A stretch of 64,000 bases of DNA from Rhodoluna sp. (lineage in GTDB: Bacteria > Actinomycetota > Actinomycetes > Actinomycetales > Microbacteriaceae). Positions 45,996 to 51,927 of this stretch are shown piece after piece (position 1 is the first letter of the stretch; each line of letters starts with the position of its first letter). The stretch covers positions 1 through 64,000 of the forward strand of contig JAHEBZ010000004.1 of assembly GCA_024641985.1 (NCBI GenBank), written 5' to 3'. The notes beneath the pieces are model-generated. The model had not been told where the DNA came from and ran no database searches. It saw only the letters and a program-made list of their open reading frames with translations. A program made the position numbers and the translations under genes.

Positions 45996-46643
45996 TTAGC
46001 CCTTCAACGATTCGGCAATTGCAAAGCCAGCGCCGGTCTTTTCGGTTAGCTCTTCAACTGTCACGCCGGGTGCCATTTGGGTTAGCAAAAGACCGCTTGG
46101 GGTTACATCAAAAACCGCAAGGTCACTGATGATGCGCTTCACCACGCCCTTGCCGGTTAGCGGCAAATTGCACACGTCAACAATCTTTGGCGCGCCATCT
46201 TTGCTCACGTGGTCGGTCAAAACGATCACTCGTTCGGTGCCGGCAACAAGGTCCATGGCTCCGCCCATGCCCTTAACCAGCTTGCCCGGAATCGTCCAGT
46301 TGGCTAAGTCGCCGGTGGCCGAAACCTCCATTGCGCCAAGCACCGCAAACTTTACGTGCCCGCCGCGAATCATGCCAAAAGAGGTAGCGCTGTCGAAAAA
46401 GCTGCCACCAGGGTTGAGGGTTACGGTTTGCTTGCCAGCATTAATTAGGTCGGCGTCTTCTTCGCCTTCATACGGAAATGCGCCCATGCCGAGCATGCCG
46501 TTTTCGCTCTGCAAAATGACATTGATGCCCGCCGGGATGTGGTTTGCCACCAGGGTTGGAATGCCAACGCCCAGGTTCACATAATCGCCGTCGCTAAGTT
46601 CGGTTGCGGCAATTGCCGCCATTTGGTCGCGGGTCCAGGCCAT
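45996..46643 (-). CDS. 3-oxoacid CoA-transferase, subunit B
   Basis: 215 residues, starting [10 protein letters not shown] at the ATG at 46643, one base after the stop of subunit A. The active-site Glu47 lies in SENGMLGMG, which forms the glutamyl-CoA thioester. With subunit A it transfers CoA from succinyl-CoA or acetyl-CoA to a 3-oxoacid. It is followed after two bases by the thiolase. Confidence 0.9.
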
Positions 46644-46644
46644 G

Positions 46645-47370
46645 TTAGGCACCTGCCTTTGCATCGGCGGCTGAGGGCCGGGGCGTTGTGGTGCGCTGTT
46701 CAATCGGTTTTTGGCGGGGCATCGATTGCACCAAACGTTGAACAAAAATGCCCGGGGTGATGATTTGGTTTGGGTCAAGATAGCCATCAACAATTTGCTC
46801 AACCTCGGCAATGGTTTGCTTGCTTGCGGTTGCGGTGATGGGGTTAAAGTTTCTGGCGCTGTGCCGATAAATCAGGTTGCCGGCGCGATCGCCCTGATAG
46901 GCATGCACCAACGCCAAGTCGGCCAAGATGCCGCGCTCTTCAATATAGGTTTCGCCGTTAAACACCTTGTGGTCTTTGCCCTCGGCAACCAGGGTGCCAA
47001 CACCGGTTCGCGTATAAAATGCTGCGATGCCCGCACCACCGGCGCGAAGGCGCTCGGCCAGGGTTCCCTGAGGTGAAAATTCGACCTCAAGCTTGCCGTC
47101 AAGATAGAGCTGGGCAAAGTGTTTGTTTTCGCCAACGTATGAAGAAATCACTTTCGAGACCTGGCCGTTTTCGAGCAGAATGCCGAGGCCCTGGCCATCA
47201 ACTCCCATGTTGTTCGAGATGATGGTGAGGTTCTTTGCGCCCGAATCGCGCACTGCCTCAATCAGGTCAAACGGGTTTCCGCCAAGGCCAAAACCGCCAA
47301 CGGCAATCACCGCGCCATCAAAAATTACATCTCGGATGGCCTCTTGCGCGTTAGCGAACTCTATGGGCAA
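46645..47370 (-). CDS. 3-oxoacid CoA-transferase, subunit A
   Basis: 241 residues with the CoA-binding GGFGLGGNP motif near 23-31 and [16 protein letters not shown] typical of the alpha subunit. The start is TTG at 47370, supported by AGGAGG six to seven bases upstream. The C-terminal 25 or so residues form a Pro/Ala/Thr-rich tail. It is the first gene of a minus-strand operon (A, B, thiolase, FAH, SDR), which diverges from an esterase gene. Confidence 0.9.
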
Positions 47371-47486
47371 AACCGGCCTCCTGAAATGACTTCTATGTCT
47401 CTTACTAAGCCAATTTTAGGCCTGATTTCTCGAGCAAAATCCTCTAGTTGTATGCCTAATTCGTGTAGGTGTGTTTGTATTTAGTT

Positions 47487-48434
47487 ATGCCTCTAGACCC
47501 GCTATTTGCCGACCGAGCCCACTTCTTTGACGAACTGGCTTTGCCAGAAGCCATCAAGGCCTATGAAGCACCGGTTAGCGAATATGTGAGCCCGCCGATC
47601 ACCACCGAAGAGCGCGTGATCTCGGGGCCGAATGGTGAAATTAGGGCACGCCTTTATCGCCCGGCCAACACATCTGCCGAGACCCATGTTTTGCCTGGCT
47701 TGGTTTGGTATCACGGTGGCGGTTTTGTGATGGGCGATTACAACATGAACGAGTCAGATGTGGTTGCGCGCGAAATCGCACATCGCCTTGGCGCTGTGGT
47801 TCTTGGTGTCGATTACCGCTTGGTAACCGAAACGGTCAAATTTCCGGCTCCTCAACTCGATGGCATTGCCAGCCTGCAGTGGTTTGGCCGCAGCACCCGC
47901 GAGCTTGGTGTTGACCCAAACAAAATCTTTGTCGGTGGCATCAGTGCGGGTGGTTGCTTGGCGGCATCGGTTGCAATTATGGATCGCGACATGGGCGATA
48001 ACTATCTTGCCGGTCAGCTTTTGAACTGCCCGATCGCGCACAAGCACATGCCAAAATACAGCGTTGAACTGCAGAGCAAAGTCGACGAACTGCCTGCCGG
48101 TTTTGGTCTGAGCAAAGATTTTGTTGACCAGAACAACGTGTTTATGGTCGAAAATGGCGATCTCTCAGACATCGAGCCCTACTGGTTCGCGGGTGAGGTC
48201 GAAGATCTTTCGGGGCTTGCGCCAGCACAAATCATCAACTGCGAATACGACACCCTGCGTTCTTCGGGCGAGCTTTATGGCAAGCAACTGGCCGAGGCCT
48301 GCAACCGGGTTGAGGTTCTAACTCAGGATTCTGTGCCCCACGCACACATCAACCGTTATCCAGCCGACTGCAAGCAAATGGGCGAAACCCTCGAGAACAT
48401 GGTGCGCTTTATGCGCGAAACCTCAAAGGCTTAA
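47487..48434 (+). CDS. Alpha/beta hydrolase, hormone-sensitive-lipase type (second copy)
   Basis: 315 residues with HGGGFVMGD (oxyanion), GGISAGG (nucleophile Ser), an Asp in CEYDTLRSSG and His in VPHAHINR. I start at the ATG at 47487, which gives the same length and N-terminus as the paralogue at 20545-21492; an upstream in-frame start adds six residues. No convincing RBS is seen. It diverges from the CoA-transferase operon and may remove an ester from the compound degraded by this island. Confidence 0.83.
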   Translation: MPLDPLFADRAHFFDELALPEAIKAYEAPVSEYVSPPITTEERVISGPNGEIRARLYRPANTSAETHVLPGLVWYHGGGFVMGDYNMNESDVVAREIAHRLGAVVLGVDYRLVTETVKFPAPQLDGIASLQWFGRSTRELGVDPNKIFVGGISAGGCLAASVAIMDRDMGDNYLAGQLLNCPIAHKHMPKYSVELQSKVDELPAGFGLSKDFVDQNNVFMVENGDLSDIEPYWFAGEVEDLSGLAPAQIINCEYDTLRSSGELYGKQLAEACNRVEVLTQDSVPHAHINRYPADCKQMGETLENMVRFMRETSKA

Positions 48435-48479
48435 ACCTCGAAGCGAATGTCATAGGTAGAGGCAAGACTAAACCTAGAA

Positions 48480-48546
48480 ATGAACAAAACCCCGGCCGTT
48501 TGATCGGTTCTCGAAAGAACTACAGGGACGGTTCCGGGGTGTTCAT
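48480..48546 (+). ncRNA. Structured RNA element upstream of the Abi gene
   Basis: A 67-base segment folds into one nested hairpin with 22 base pairs. From outside in: ATGAAC/GTTCAT (48480-48485 with 48541-48546), an AAA bulge, ACCCCGG/CCGGGGT (48489-48495 with 48534-48540), a TT bulge, CCGT/ACGG, a symmetric 7x7 internal loop, then GTTCT/AGAAC closing a CGAA loop (48507-48520). It ends 16 bases before the Abi GTG start. No T-run follows. A weak promoter (TTAAAC-16-TAGGTA at 48431-48458) may drive it. It may be a regulatory RNA or RNA antitoxin, or a translation-control leader. Confidence 0.45.
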
Positions 48547-48562
48547 AGAAAGGTTAACGCAA

Positions 48563-49231
48563 GTGTCTGACATTAATCAAGCGCATTCTTGGGAGTTCCT
48601 TGAGCGACATTTCACTCCCGCACGTCTGCACTCATACCTGCTCGAATTTAATGGCGACAAGCAATTAGCTCAAGCACTGTACGAGTGGAACATTGAAATT
48701 TCTGGCGCATTCTGGGAACTCATAACATACGTGGAAATCGCACTTAGGAACAGAATTAACCAGCGTTTTGAAAACGCAGCAATTTCTAAGGGTGGGCATT
48801 GGATTCTTGAATTTGAGAAACTTGCGACACCTAATTCGGAGATGGCCTTGAAAGAGATTCGGCAGGCGAGATTCAGGATCTCGGCAGGTAAGAAACTTGT
48901 CACTCCTGAGCAATTAGTCTCAGAGCTTCCCTTCGGTTTTTGGGTTAACCTGTTGTCGAAGCGTCACCGAAATTTTTGGCCTGAACTCGCATCCGGGTTT
49001 CCTGGCATGCCAAATCGAAACCCGTCGGTCCTTTACACAAAACTTTCGTCGCTCAAAGATTTAAGAAACCGAATCGGGCACCACCATCGAATTTGGTCTT
49101 TAGATTTGAGCTCAATGCATCAAGACATCCTCAAAATCAGCGCATTCCTAGATAAAGACCTGGCGACTTGGATTTTGAGAAAGAGCAAAGTAGACGAACT
49201 CCTTGCGAGGAAACCCAGAAACCAAACTTGA
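48563..49231 (+). CDS. Abi-family (HEPN) abortive-infection protein
   Basis: 222 residues of the Abi-like family common in actinobacteria. Recognisable blocks are RLHSYLLEFNGDKQLAQALY, ITYVEIALRNRI, LPFGFWVNLLSK and LRNRIGHHHRIW. The last carries the HEPN R-x4-H nuclease motif (RNRIGH). I start at GTG at 48563, which has AAAGG nine bases before; longer frames would begin inside the RNA hairpin. The gene looks more AT-rich than its neighbours and stands alone between an esterase and purM, which suggests acquisition. Probable role: phage-triggered RNA cleavage. Conditions and partner are unknown. Confidence 0.82.
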   Translation: MSDINQAHSWEFLERHFTPARLHSYLLEFNGDKQLAQALYEWNIEISGAFWELITYVEIALRNRINQRFENAAISKGGHWILEFEKLATPNSEMALKEIRQARFRISAGKKLVTPEQLVSELPFGFWVNLLSKRHRNFWPELASGFPGMPNRNPSVLYTKLSSLKDLRNRIGHHHRIWSLDLSSMHQDILKISAFLDKDLATWILRKSKVDELLARKPRNQT

Positions 49232-49264
49232 TCCTCGCGGATCATTTCTATTGATTGAAACGAA

Positions 49265-50362
49265 TTATTTGTATTCGCCAACTAGGCGAACTGCGCCGCC
49301 ATCAACACCCTTTGCACCCTGAACATAGCTAGCCAGGTCTGCTGGTGCAGCCTCGATCTCGCCGAGAGTCCAGGTGTGAACACCTAGTTTGGTTAGGCTA
49401 GCCGCAATTTCATCGGCCTTGTCGGCGTCAACCACAACTGCCTGGCCAAGTCCGAGGTTCCAGGTGCCCTCAACCGATTCAAGCGAAAAGTCGCCCCAGC
49501 CGGCAAGAACTTGAAAGACCTCTTGAGGTGCCCAGGTGGCACGGTGAACATCGAGGGCAACGCCCTGTGGCAAAACGCGCGCAATGTTGGCTGCGATGCC
49601 GCCGCCGGTGATGTGGCTCATGGCGTGAACGCCCGAACCAAGCTGGCTTTCGAGCAGCGAATTAAGCACACCCGTATAAAGAGCGGTTGGCTCTAGAAGC
49701 TTTTCGCCTAGCGAAATGCCGGCAAACTCTGGCACCTGATCGGTGTATTTGTAGCCCATGTCGCGAACGATTTTGCGCACCAGCGAATAACCGTTTGAGT
49801 GCAAACCCGAAGACTGCATGCCAAGCACAACATCGCCAACGCGCACATTTTGGGGGCCAAGCAATTTGGCTGCGTCAACCACGCCAACCGCTGCGCCGGC
49901 AACGTCATAATCATCAGCGCCAAGCAAGCCCGGGTGCTCGGCGGTTTCGCCACCAACCAGTGCAACGCCAACGGCCGAACAAGCCTGTGCAATGCCGCGA
50001 ACAATGTCGGCGATGCGCTCTGGAACAACCTTGCCACAGGCAATGTAGTCGGTCATAAATAGGCTCTTTGCGCCAACCACAACGATGTCGTCGACAACCA
50101 TTCCAACTAGATCTTGGCCAATGGTGTCGTGCTTGTCGATTGCCTGCGCGATGGCAACTTTGGTGCCAACACCATCTGTCGAGGTTGCCAACAGCGGGCG
50201 GTCATAAGATTTTAGAAACGAAACATCCATCATGCCGGCAAAGCCACCAAGGCCGCCCATCACAAGGTCGTTGTGAGTTGCGCCAACGGCACGCTTCATA
50301 AGTTCTACGGCCAGGTCGCCGGCTTCGGTGTCGACACCCGATTCTGCATATGCGTTAGACAT
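49265..50362 (-). CDS. purM: Phosphoribosylformylglycinamidine cyclo-ligase
   Basis: Makes AIR from FGAM with ATP in purine synthesis. 365 residues with the PurM/AIRS N-terminal dimer domain (MGGLGGFAGMMDV, then TSTDGVGTKVAIA and GQDLVGMVVDDIVVVGA) and the C-terminal AIRS_C domain (HITGGGIAANIARVLP). It lies 26 bases downstream of purF in the same direction, a conserved actinobacterial pair. It converges with the Abi gene. Confidence 0.95.
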   Translation of the reverse strand: MSNAYAESGVDTEAGDLAVELMKRAVGATHNDLVMGGLGGFAGMMDVSFLKSYDRPLLATSTDGVGTKVAIAQAIDKHDTIGQDLVGMVVDDIVVVGAKSLFMTDYIACGKVVPERIADIVRGIAQACSAVGVALVGGETAEHPGLLGADDYDVAGAAVGVVDAAKLLGPQNVRVGDVVLGMQSSGLHSNGYSLVRKIVRDMGYKYTDQVPEFAGISLGEKLLEPTALYTGVLNSLLESQLGSGVHAMSHITGGGIAANIARVLPQGVALDVHRATWAPQEVFQVLAGWGDFSLESVEGTWNLGLGQAVVVDADKADEIAASLTKLGVHTWTLGEIEAAPADLASYVQGAKGVDGGAVRLVGEYK

Positions 50363-50388
50363 CTTGAGCTTTCTTTGCGGCTAAAAAA

Positions 50389-51927
50389 TTAGTTGGTTTC
50401 GGCTGCGCGCACGGTTGCGTCGAGCTCTGAATCGGGGCCTGGCTCGCACGCTGCGGCCTCTGGGCGCTCGAGCAAGTTTTTGCCAAGGCGCTCGGCGGTT
50501 GGCAACTCGATTGGGTAGGTGCCGGTGAAACAAGCGGTGCAAAGCTGCGATTCTTGCTGGCCGGTGGCCGCAATCATGCCGTCTTTGGTTAGGTAACCAA
50601 GGGTGTCAGCGCCAATCGAAGCACGCACGTCGTCAACTCCAAGGCCGGTGGCAATTAGCTCGGCGCGAGTGGCAAAATCGATTCCATAGAAGCAAGGCCA
50701 GGTGATGGGTGGGCTAGAAATTCGCACGTGAATTTCGGCGGCGCCCGCCTCGCGAAGCATTTGCACAAGTGCTCGCTGGGTGTTGCCGCGCACAATTGAA
50801 TCGTCGATCACAATGATGCGCTTGCCGCGAATTACCTCTTTTAGAGGGTTCAACTTGAGGCGAATGCCTCGTTGGCGAATGGTTTGCGAAGGCTGAATAA
50901 AGGTGCGGCCAACATAGGCGTTTTTGACTAGGCCGTGGCCAAACGGAATTCCCGATTCTTGCGAGAAACCGATGGCTGCCGGGGTGCCCGACTCGGGGGT
51001 TGGAATAACCAGGTCGGCTTCTACCGGATATTCGCGGGCCAATTGACGACCCATTTCGACGCGGGCGTCGTAAACATTCTTGCCGTTGATTGCGGTGTCG
51101 GGGCGGGCCAAATATACGTATTCAAAAACGCAACCGGCTCGCTTGGTTTCGGCGAAGCGAGTTGAGCGAAGGCCGTTTTCGTCGATGGCAATTAGCTCGC
51201 CAGGCTCGACCTCGCGAACCAAAGATGCGCCCACAATATCGAGGGCTGCGGTTTCTGAGGCAACCACCCAACCGCGCTCGAGGCGGCCAAGCACCAACGG
51301 GCGCACGCCCTGCGGGTCGCGAGCGGCATACAGAGTGGTTTCATCCATGAAAACAAGGCAGAAGGCACCCTTAACCTTTGGCAGCAATTCGAGTGCTGTT
51401 GCCTCAAGTGTGTGATCAAGATCACCGGCCATGAGGGCCGTTAAAACTGCGGTGTCGGTGGTGTTGCCACCGGTGATTTCATTGGTGCCCTGATCTGGGT
51501 AGCGCTGCTTTAGAAGCTCGAGAAGATCGGCGGTGTTGGTTAGGTTGCCGTTGTGAGCAAGCGCAACAGTGCCGGCCGAGGTGCGGCCAAGGGTTGGTTG
51601 TGCGTTGCGCCAGTGGCTTGCGCCGGTTGTTGAATAGCGGTTGTGGCCAACTGCAATGTGGCCAATTAGGCTTTCGAGGGCCGACTCAGAGAAGACCTGC
51701 GAAACCAGACCCATGTCTTTATAGACCAAAATCTTTTTGCCATCAGAGGTGGCAATGCCGGCCGATTCTTGGCCGCGGTGCTGAAGCGAATAGAGACCAA
51801 AGAATGTCAGTTTGGCAACCTCTTCGCCGGGTGCCCATACGCCAAAAACGCCACACTGATCTTGTGGTGCTTTTTCGTCACTGCTAACAGCAATGTCGGT
51901 GTTCAGAAGTCCGTCGCCACGAAGCAA
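50389..51927 (-). CDS. purF: Amidophosphoribosyltransferase
   Basis: Commits PRPP and glutamine to purine synthesis. 512 residues: a 24-residue propeptide, then the Ntn nucleophile Cys25 in QCGVFGVW, a class II glutaminase domain (to about 250) and a type I PRTase domain with the PRPP loop VIDDSIVRGNT. Cysteines consistent with the [4Fe-4S] Bacillus-type enzyme occur near the C-terminus (LCTACFTG). The start is a TTG with AGGA about ten bases upstream; no ATG fits the propeptide. purM follows. Confidence 0.94.
   Translation of the reverse strand: MLRGDGLLNTDIAVSSDEKAPQDQCGVFGVWAPGEEVAKLTFFGLYSLQHRGQESAGIATSDGKKILVYKDMGLVSQVFSESALESLIGHIAVGHNRYSTTGASHWRNAQPTLGRTSAGTVALAHNGNLTNTADLLELLKQRYPDQGTNEITGGNTTDTAVLTALMAGDLDHTLEATALELLPKVKGAFCLVFMDETTLYAARDPQGVRPLVLGRLERGWVVASETAALDIVGASLVREVEPGELIAIDENGLRSTRFAETKRAGCVFEYVYLARPDTAINGKNVYDARVEMGRQLAREYPVEADLVIPTPESGTPAAIGFSQESGIPFGHGLVKNAYVGRTFIQPSQTIRQRGIRLKLNPLKEVIRGKRIIVIDDSIVRGNTQRALVQMLREAGAAEIHVRISSPPITWPCFYGIDFATRAELIATGLGVDDVRASIGADTLGYLTKDGMIAATGQQESQLCTACFTGTYPIELPTAERLGKNLLERPEAAACEPGPDSELDATVRAAETN

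Follow-up and report, generated by a model that had tools for sequence, protein, structure and literature searches.

The locus described here raises the question of what an RNA hairpin does directly in front of a gene for an Abi-family protein, and whether the two form a functional pair. A preliminary description of the window, a stretch of 64,000 nucleotides from a 1.38-Mb Rhodoluna genome in six contigs, had proposed that a single RNA inhibitor and a HEPN RNase make up a phage-defence unit. The gene, the protein and the hairpin are considered here in turn, followed by their relatives, the known systems they resemble and the other ways in which the hairpin could be explained.

The abi gene is an open frame of 222 codons with a GTG start (48563-49231, forward strand), flanked by an esterase gene (47469-48434, forward strand) and by purM (49265-50362, reverse strand), both named from their translations. 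Measured in 500-base steps across 46000-51499, GC content is 0.456 and 0.464 in the two that cover abi, against 0.496 to 0.586 in all others. A likely ribosome-binding site, AGAAAGG (48547-48553, forward strand), was read by eye 9 nt before the GTG. A simple terminator scan of 48300-49400 listed no site at the hairpin and a simple promoter scan found no promoter-like site for it, so that a discrete small RNA at this place is a candidate. The same interval holds three terminator-like sites where 1.6 are expected from shuffles, which makes the possible terminator hairpin after abi (49229-49244, readable on both strands and thus also towards purM) a weak candidate. The 3' side of purM (49229-49265 of the window) differs among the seven loci compared and looks like a variable spot in the genus. 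Beside purM, abi and the esterase gene were both absent by tblastn from 29 other loci of the genus, a comparison that drew on 36 other genomes with a purM match and covered up to 1.5 kb on each side, less at contig ends. Relatives on plasmids adjoin XRE regulators, an HNH endonuclease or a Shedu nuclease. The absence at the purM site and these plasmid neighbours suggest that the abi locus is a mobile defence-type cassette.

The product of abi, 222 amino acids long, is a predicted RNase toxin of the Abi_2/AbiF type. It matches Pfam Abi_2 (PF07751) at E 8.7e-9, with 36.4 bits against a gathering cut-off of 25.6. PADLOC gave weak matches to AbiD and to the 309-position profile of PD-T4-5 (E 1.8e-7), a plasmid-borne defence gene of E. 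coli that is a distant relative of AbiF/D (PMC9519451); passages of that paper on PD-T4-5 name no RNA partner, unlike the window protein with its upstream RNA. NCBIfam profiles did not match the protein, a PDB sequence search returned one unrelated match (E 0.36), and an IMG/VR scan with this single protein confirmed no relative. The R-x4-H nuclease motif of HEPN proteins, already recognised in the preliminary description, is present as R168-N-R-I-G-H173-H174 (49064-49084, forward strand), and R168, N169, R170, H173 and H174 are invariant in the 10 aligned proteins of alignment A1, whose further invariant columns include Y25, E58 and R62. The AlphaFold2 model built from A1 has a pLDDT of 91.7 and a pTM of 0.87. 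In VIA-align its top row is chain A of PDB 8VZ6, titled "PbAbiF dimer bound to ncRNA", which aligns over 203 residues at 3.0 A and 18% identity with Z 13.1. The next six rows, at Z 5.7 to 5.0, are toxin-antitoxin HEPN chains with one exception, Roquin; we take 5yep to be a HEPN pair. A Z of 13 is near the caution line of VIA-align for helical proteins, and it is the gap to the next row (5.7) that supports the match. The top row in Foldseek was also 8VZ6 chain A (E 4.3e-3), with no row at E<=0.001. On the Abi_2 match, the invariant motif and the fold match to 8VZ6, the modelled protein is very probably a HEPN protein of the AbiF type whose predicted active site is intact.

The 67 bases at 48480-48546 (forward strand) had been described as one long hairpin with bulges, and the folding energy bears this out: 48470-48565 reaches a minimum free energy of -36.6 kcal/mol against a mean of -22.05 (sd 3.28) in 200 dinucleotide shuffles (z -4.44), none of which matches it. 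The 16 bases between the end of the hairpin (48546) and the GTG at 48563 and the missing T-run after the hairpin were likewise described correctly. Within the hairpin lies a conserved core (48489-48540, forward strand), defined by fold, covariation and a match to our covariance model R1 (55.5 bits, E 3.3e-11, the window itself being in the seed). The core consists of P1 (ACCCCGG/CCGGGGU), P1b (CCGU/ACGG), a UG/CA pair, an asymmetric internal loop, a variable P2 and an apical loop of 4 nt, with a 2-nt bulge on the 3' side between P1 and P1b. A 3-nt bulge separates P1 from an outer 6-bp helix, AUGAAC/GUUCAU, which pairs 48480-48485 with 48541-48546, and the minimum-free-energy fold adds a further outer helix, AACCU/AGGUU. 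The core recurs in relatives; the outer 6-bp helix was not seen in the flanks of 62 of them. The symmetric 7x7 internal loop of the preliminary description (UUUGAUC x UACAGGG) is obtained only if the conserved UG/CA pair and the U.G pairs are left open, whereas the minimum-free-energy fold has a 4x4 loop.

Homologues were sought by protein only. They were present in 14 of 149 related genomes, the window genome included, and from GTDB contigs the best 80 of at least 521 relatives were used. A regular expression demanding complementary P1 arms picked out 76 of 101 loci, among them spurious and other-type hairpins, so that counts from the model are given below. After L020, L021, L065, L095 and L096 had been dropped by hand 71 loci were kept, and 53 were listed once 15 more had been left out by name and three as duplicates. 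MAFFT slid the 3' arm in both alignment A2 (33 sequences) and alignment A3 (39 sequences), and R1 was therefore built only from the 24 sequences with equal 3' spacing (A4), a choice that narrows the model. It was applied to 91 of the 101 loci (all except L013, L014, L016, L018, L019, L020, L059, L065, L095 and L096), with L001 represented by the window. A class sample of 296 genomes contained 45 with an Abi_2 match, 30 of which gave a locus, each the best Abi_2 match of its genome; leaving out the window's own gives 29, part of which are from the same genomes as loci of the GTDB set, with none apparently among the 24 seeds. From plasmid and phage collections, eight of the 22 matches listed were fetched. 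Antisense matches of R1 are the near-palindrome read backwards.

The hairpin is found upstream of many orthologues. R1 matches at E<=0.01 within 200 nt upstream, on the gene strand, at 61 of the 91 listed loci, 24 of the 61 being the seed. Outside the seed it matches just upstream of 22 of the 29 class-sample Abi_2 loci, all at E<=0.0025, and of five of the eight plasmid loci (5/6 actinobacterial, 0/2 alphaproteobacterial). Seven of the 29 class loci have no match just upstream at E<=0.1 and 30 of the 91 none at E<=0.01, which suggests that part of the family relies on a different RNA type or on no RNA. Close relatives share a near-identical core, ACCCCGG-CCGU-UUGAUC-[P2]-UACAGGG-ACGG-UU-CCGGGGU, and distant ones keep the same plan in other letters, often ACCCCGG-NGNC-AUG-[P2]-CAGAGG-...-CCGGGGU. 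The record titles of the matches range from Salinibacterium, Dietzia, Brachybacterium, Frankia, Blastococcus and Pseudonocardia to Loktanella, Devosia, Sedimenticola, Methylomonas and an Acidobacteria bin. The label "actinobacterial version" suggested for the element earlier is too narrow, since it also occurs in loci whose titles name genera of Alphaproteobacteria, Sedimenticola, Methylomonas and the Acidobacteria bin. In six proteobacterial genomes R1 recovered the six known copies and an unlisted one (L201) directly before an Abi_2 frame (E 6.6e-60), and in 196 genomes of a proteobacterial order it found only the seed genome and one weak match (E 0.008). Over the 12 nt on either side of the core, the flanks of P1 are also conserved in 62 loci, with A at -8 in 55, C at -4 in 42 and A at -1 in 52 on the 5' side, and U at +2 in 49, U at +3 in 44 and C at +4 in 51 on the 3' side. 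These A-rich 5' and UUC 3' flanks lie outside the stem and are perhaps processing sites or parts of the mature RNA. No common promoter box was found upstream of the RNA in the 62 loci, TANNNT occurring in at most three of them at any position.

As judged from aligned relatives, the RNA structure is under selection, and the compensatory changes that a functional fold would leave behind are found in both alignments examined. In A4 both sides change in 5 of 13 pairs, and the covariation score is 0.222 against 0.106 in shuffled alignments and at most 0.080 with slid partners; the shuffles ignore relatedness, the slid-partner controls do not. Since the regular expression required complementary P1 arms, the pairing of P1 in A4 is partly built in. 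The pairing of P1b played no part in choosing the sequences, and P1b holds 18 of the 21 double changes, its pairs appearing as CG/GC 17/6, GC/AU 18/4 and UA/CG 16/8. Alignment A6 comprises 13 close relatives, among them L120, which R1 detected, and three plasmid loci that the protein search brought in; it has changes on both sides in 6 of 18 pairs and a score of 0.221 against 0.089 shuffled. Here C-G in P1 becomes U-A in two plasmids and G-C becomes A-U in L120, and in P2 both partners change at four pairs, a single position having as many as four pair types; the P2 pair of columns 20-64 is broken in 5 of the 13.

The pairing of this RNA with Abi_2 genes is specific at strong R1 scores. At E<=1e-3 the 296 class genomes give 12 matches, nine of them directly before a full Abi_2 gene (the window's among them), one before a C-terminal Abi_2 remnant (G303) and two without Abi_2 in their 3-kb loci; of the latter two genomes, one (G095) carries a Pfam Abi_2 gene on a different contig, and the other (G272) is partially matched by A1 at another chromosomal position. 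A further 17 matches in the same genomes fall between E 1e-3 and 0.1. Four of them are the tandem copies of G258, and one, in G398, has an Abi_2 gene some 1.4 kb downstream. The other 12 are without an Abi_2 frame in the fetched loci, so R1 is not specific in this range. In G303 the toxin looks decayed and the RNA kept, with only a C-terminal Abi_2 part (L122). In L119 (1501-1542) and L121 (1501-1538) the RNA is an orphan: its core is almost perfect, the 3-kb locus contains no Abi_2 gene, and it could possibly be a solo antitoxin.

The RNA had been called single, and this is indeed its usual form, with one copy in the window genome; tandem pairs exist as well. The 2.2-Mb genome G258 carries the pairs L124/L138 and L139/L140 before two Abi_2 genes, and the tandem copies of L038 score weakly (E 0.018 and 0.43). 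G258 has four Abi_2 matches in all. In L051 and L088 RNA copies flank the gene, including a position after it, and over 62 loci the distance from RNA to the start of the protein match varies from 21 to 135 nt. The tandem copies of G258, and weakly those of L038, recall type III arrays. The type of RNA, scored as internal-loop letters, other type or none, follows the protein tree: it changes 21 times on a tree of 87 proteins against 40 to 54 times (mean 48.5) in 300 shuffles, a signal that either co-evolution or co-inheritance could produce. The tree was made by a quick method and many of its forks are weak; 14 of the 101 loci had been dropped by name. A manual correction to the label of L063, made ahead of the shuffles, lowered the count of changes from 22 to 21.

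The abiF RNA motif, RF03085 in Rfam, had been named as a possible parallel to the hairpin, and the hairpin does not belong to it. Rfam has no match on the hairpin, either in 20 kb at E<=1 or in the 161 bases of 48440-48600 at E<=10, and the RF03085 model has none in 15 homologue loci at E<=1 and in 15 more at E<=5. When RF03085 was run over 30 genomes at E<=10 no match fell on the hairpin, and in the window genome its matches are only on other contigs (E 8.0 and 9.1). A true copy of RF03085 (44.6 bits, cut-off 37) is present in another genome of the same genus (G005, L102, C1:24426-24461), directly before an Abi_2 gene of 287 aa (E 2.2e-50), in contrast to the 222 aa of the window protein. Two RNA families with two Abi_2 lineages are thus found in one genus. 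The RF03085 consensus, CCCGCCAAGCCUCUCAACGAUGCUCAAAUCGGCGGGU, has 37 positions, whereas the window RNA has 52 nt, the P1 arms ACCCCGG/CCGGGGU, a different internal loop and a variable arm. The window RNA is probably a new RNA variant of the AbiF kind, its distinctness being judged from the sequence against Rfam RF03085 only; two covariance models for AbiF RNAs from Zilberzwige-Tal et al. 2025, AbiF5_iter3.CM and diverse_rna_xinsi.CM, are named in PMC12804078. No paper on such an RNA in Actinomycetota was found among the top-ranked matches in the open-licence literature. The account of AbiF in PMC12373285 stresses Bacillota and Pseudomonadota, and the stem "actino" is absent from its main text.

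By analogy with AbiF in other bacteria, the locus probably behaves as an AbiF-like toxin-antitoxin unit, in the manner of type III systems. In C. difficile, AbiFCd is toxic and is neutralised in cis and in trans, by direct binding, by the ncRNA RCd22, which contains two RF03085 motifs and has its own promoter and terminator; destruction of its stems abolishes neutralisation (PMC12373285). A complex of PbAbiF with RNA is reported in a review (PMC12737573). AbiFCd-RCd22 and the PbAbiF system of Prevotellaceae have in common with the window an Abi_2 HEPN protein with R-x4-H and an RNA directly upstream in the same orientation, and the fold of PbAbiF is shared by the model of the window protein. 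The window RNA differs from RCd22 in being one hairpin with no terminator seen by the scan, and as it is not RF03085 the function is borrowed across different RNAs. The structured RNA directly upstream on the same strand is a type III feature that the window has, and ToxIN, CptIN and TenpIN also have an RNA antitoxin upstream of an RNase toxin gene; type III loci have arrays of 34-50-nt repeats, compared with mostly one hairpin in the window family, and a tandem-repeat antitoxin is held to be a key type III feature (PMC12373285). With one copy in the window genome, we say that the locus works like a type III system and not that it is one. The toxins of these systems have the ToxN fold, unlike the predicted HEPN fold of the window protein.

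Of the pair proposed earlier, a structured RNA together with an AbiF-type HEPN protein stands: the predicted RNA structure has covariation, it is tightly associated with an Abi_2 lineage, and the protein has a predicted AbiF-like fold with the catalytic motif. The inhibitor and RNase activities would follow the AbiF precedent. One transcript would carry the hairpin RNA and the abi gene. In this RNA, P1 and P1b would form a GC-rich rod with an asymmetric internal loop that is conserved (5' ...UG..., 3' CAGGGA in the window, where many relatives have CAGAGG) and with an apical arm that varies. Once released or processed, it could bind the HEPN protein, which is presumably a dimer, and hold the R-x4-H RNase site shut. 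The supply of RNA could fail if, say, the locus were lost or a phage halted transcription in the host; the protein would then be freed and could cut cellular RNA, so that growth would stop.

The hairpin could instead be only a cis-acting element of the 5'UTR that limits translation or transcription of abi until a phage protein or cold opens it. It does lie in a presumed 5'UTR, where the outermost helix, AACCU/AGGUU, would mask some of the likely ribosome-binding site, and there is a precedent in lactococcal AbiD1, a member of the same Abi_2/AbiD/F protein group with an RNA structure before the gene, in which the structured initiation region acts as a cis translational switch opened by binding of phage Orf1 (PMC2661086). 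The window RNA differs from AbiD1 in its trans-type features. The variable distance to the protein and the lack of conservation of the outer helix do not suit such a switch, nor do the copies after the gene (L051, L088), in tandem (G258) and without a toxin in 3 kb (L119, L121); we infer from these copies that the RNA more likely acts in trans than purely as a 5'UTR switch. Among the unpaired letters, moreover, conservation is highest in the internal loop, as in a protein-binding RNA, and control purely in cis is unlikely. Instead of simply inhibiting the HEPN protein, the RNA might be bound by it as a guide or sensor for RNA cleavage, much like an early Cas13 crRNA. The report of AbiF as the ancestor of Cas13 (PMC12737573) and an apical arm that varies in length and sequence on a fixed core are in line with guiding; in close relatives, however, changes in the arm are compensatory and keep it paired as a stem, unlike a free guide, which leaves this role very improbable.

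Explanations without a functional RNA fare still less well. A DNA palindrome (an operator, or an integration or transposition site) or a coding sequence would make the fold incidental, and the element is nearly palindromic, the gene frame stays open through the hairpin in 28 of 62 loci, and a peptide YRDGSGVF is in frame in several close relatives. Yet the conserved asymmetric bulges and loops are not needed by a DNA palindrome, the sequence changes are compensatory, and in the other 34 loci a stop closes the gene frame in or after the hairpin, so that it is not a conserved coding leader; it is hardly credible that the fold is incidental. A translated leader was rejected on the phase of the frames, 28/22/12 in 62 loci. 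That the hairpin is the ordinary transcription terminator of the upstream esterase gene has next to no probability: it is GC-rich and its core starts 54 nt past the esterase stop codon, but it has no T-run, it accompanies abi genes elsewhere, and the esterase and abi genes are missing together beside purM in the 29 loci of the genus.

The reading of a toxin with an RNA antitoxin can be extended, tentatively and with slightly less than even confidence, to an undescribed family of RNA antitoxins unlike RF03085, usually a single hairpin, which co-evolves with its own short AbiF lineage in Actinomycetota and Proteobacteria and persists as solo RNAs after loss of the toxin. If this is true, solo RNAs may act as trans-acting immunity against incoming toxin copies. 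AbiF with its RNA is the proposed root of RNA-guided Cas13, and a second RNA family of distinct sequence would be an independent case for learning which RNA features HEPN toxins need. It would also allow one to ask how an antitoxin RNA changes as its toxin diverges and whether inhibition is older than guiding. Genes of plasmids and chromosomes labelled merely "Abi family protein" would become testable RNA-protein pairs, which the RNA covariance model is able to find.

Several relatives have surroundings or hairpins of their own. On the Dietzia plasmid pI (L212) the RNA-Abi_2 pair adjoins a Shedu nuclease and a DUF262 gene, in what appears to be a small plasmid defence island. Loci L057, L058, L060, L084 and L039, from one protein clade of the tree, have another hairpin type upstream of the Abi_2 gene, GCCCCGGGGGGUUU...CCCGGGGC-UCUCUGU and similar, perhaps a further RNA class of the family. 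The Abi_2 genes of L052, L056 and L059 are without the core and have a strong upstream hairpin, GAGCCCGGGUCGGUCGC..., and those of L010 and L017, also without it, have an upstream hairpin of the form ...GACGGUGAAAACCGCCGGAC... and similar; each of these could be a further RNA partner.
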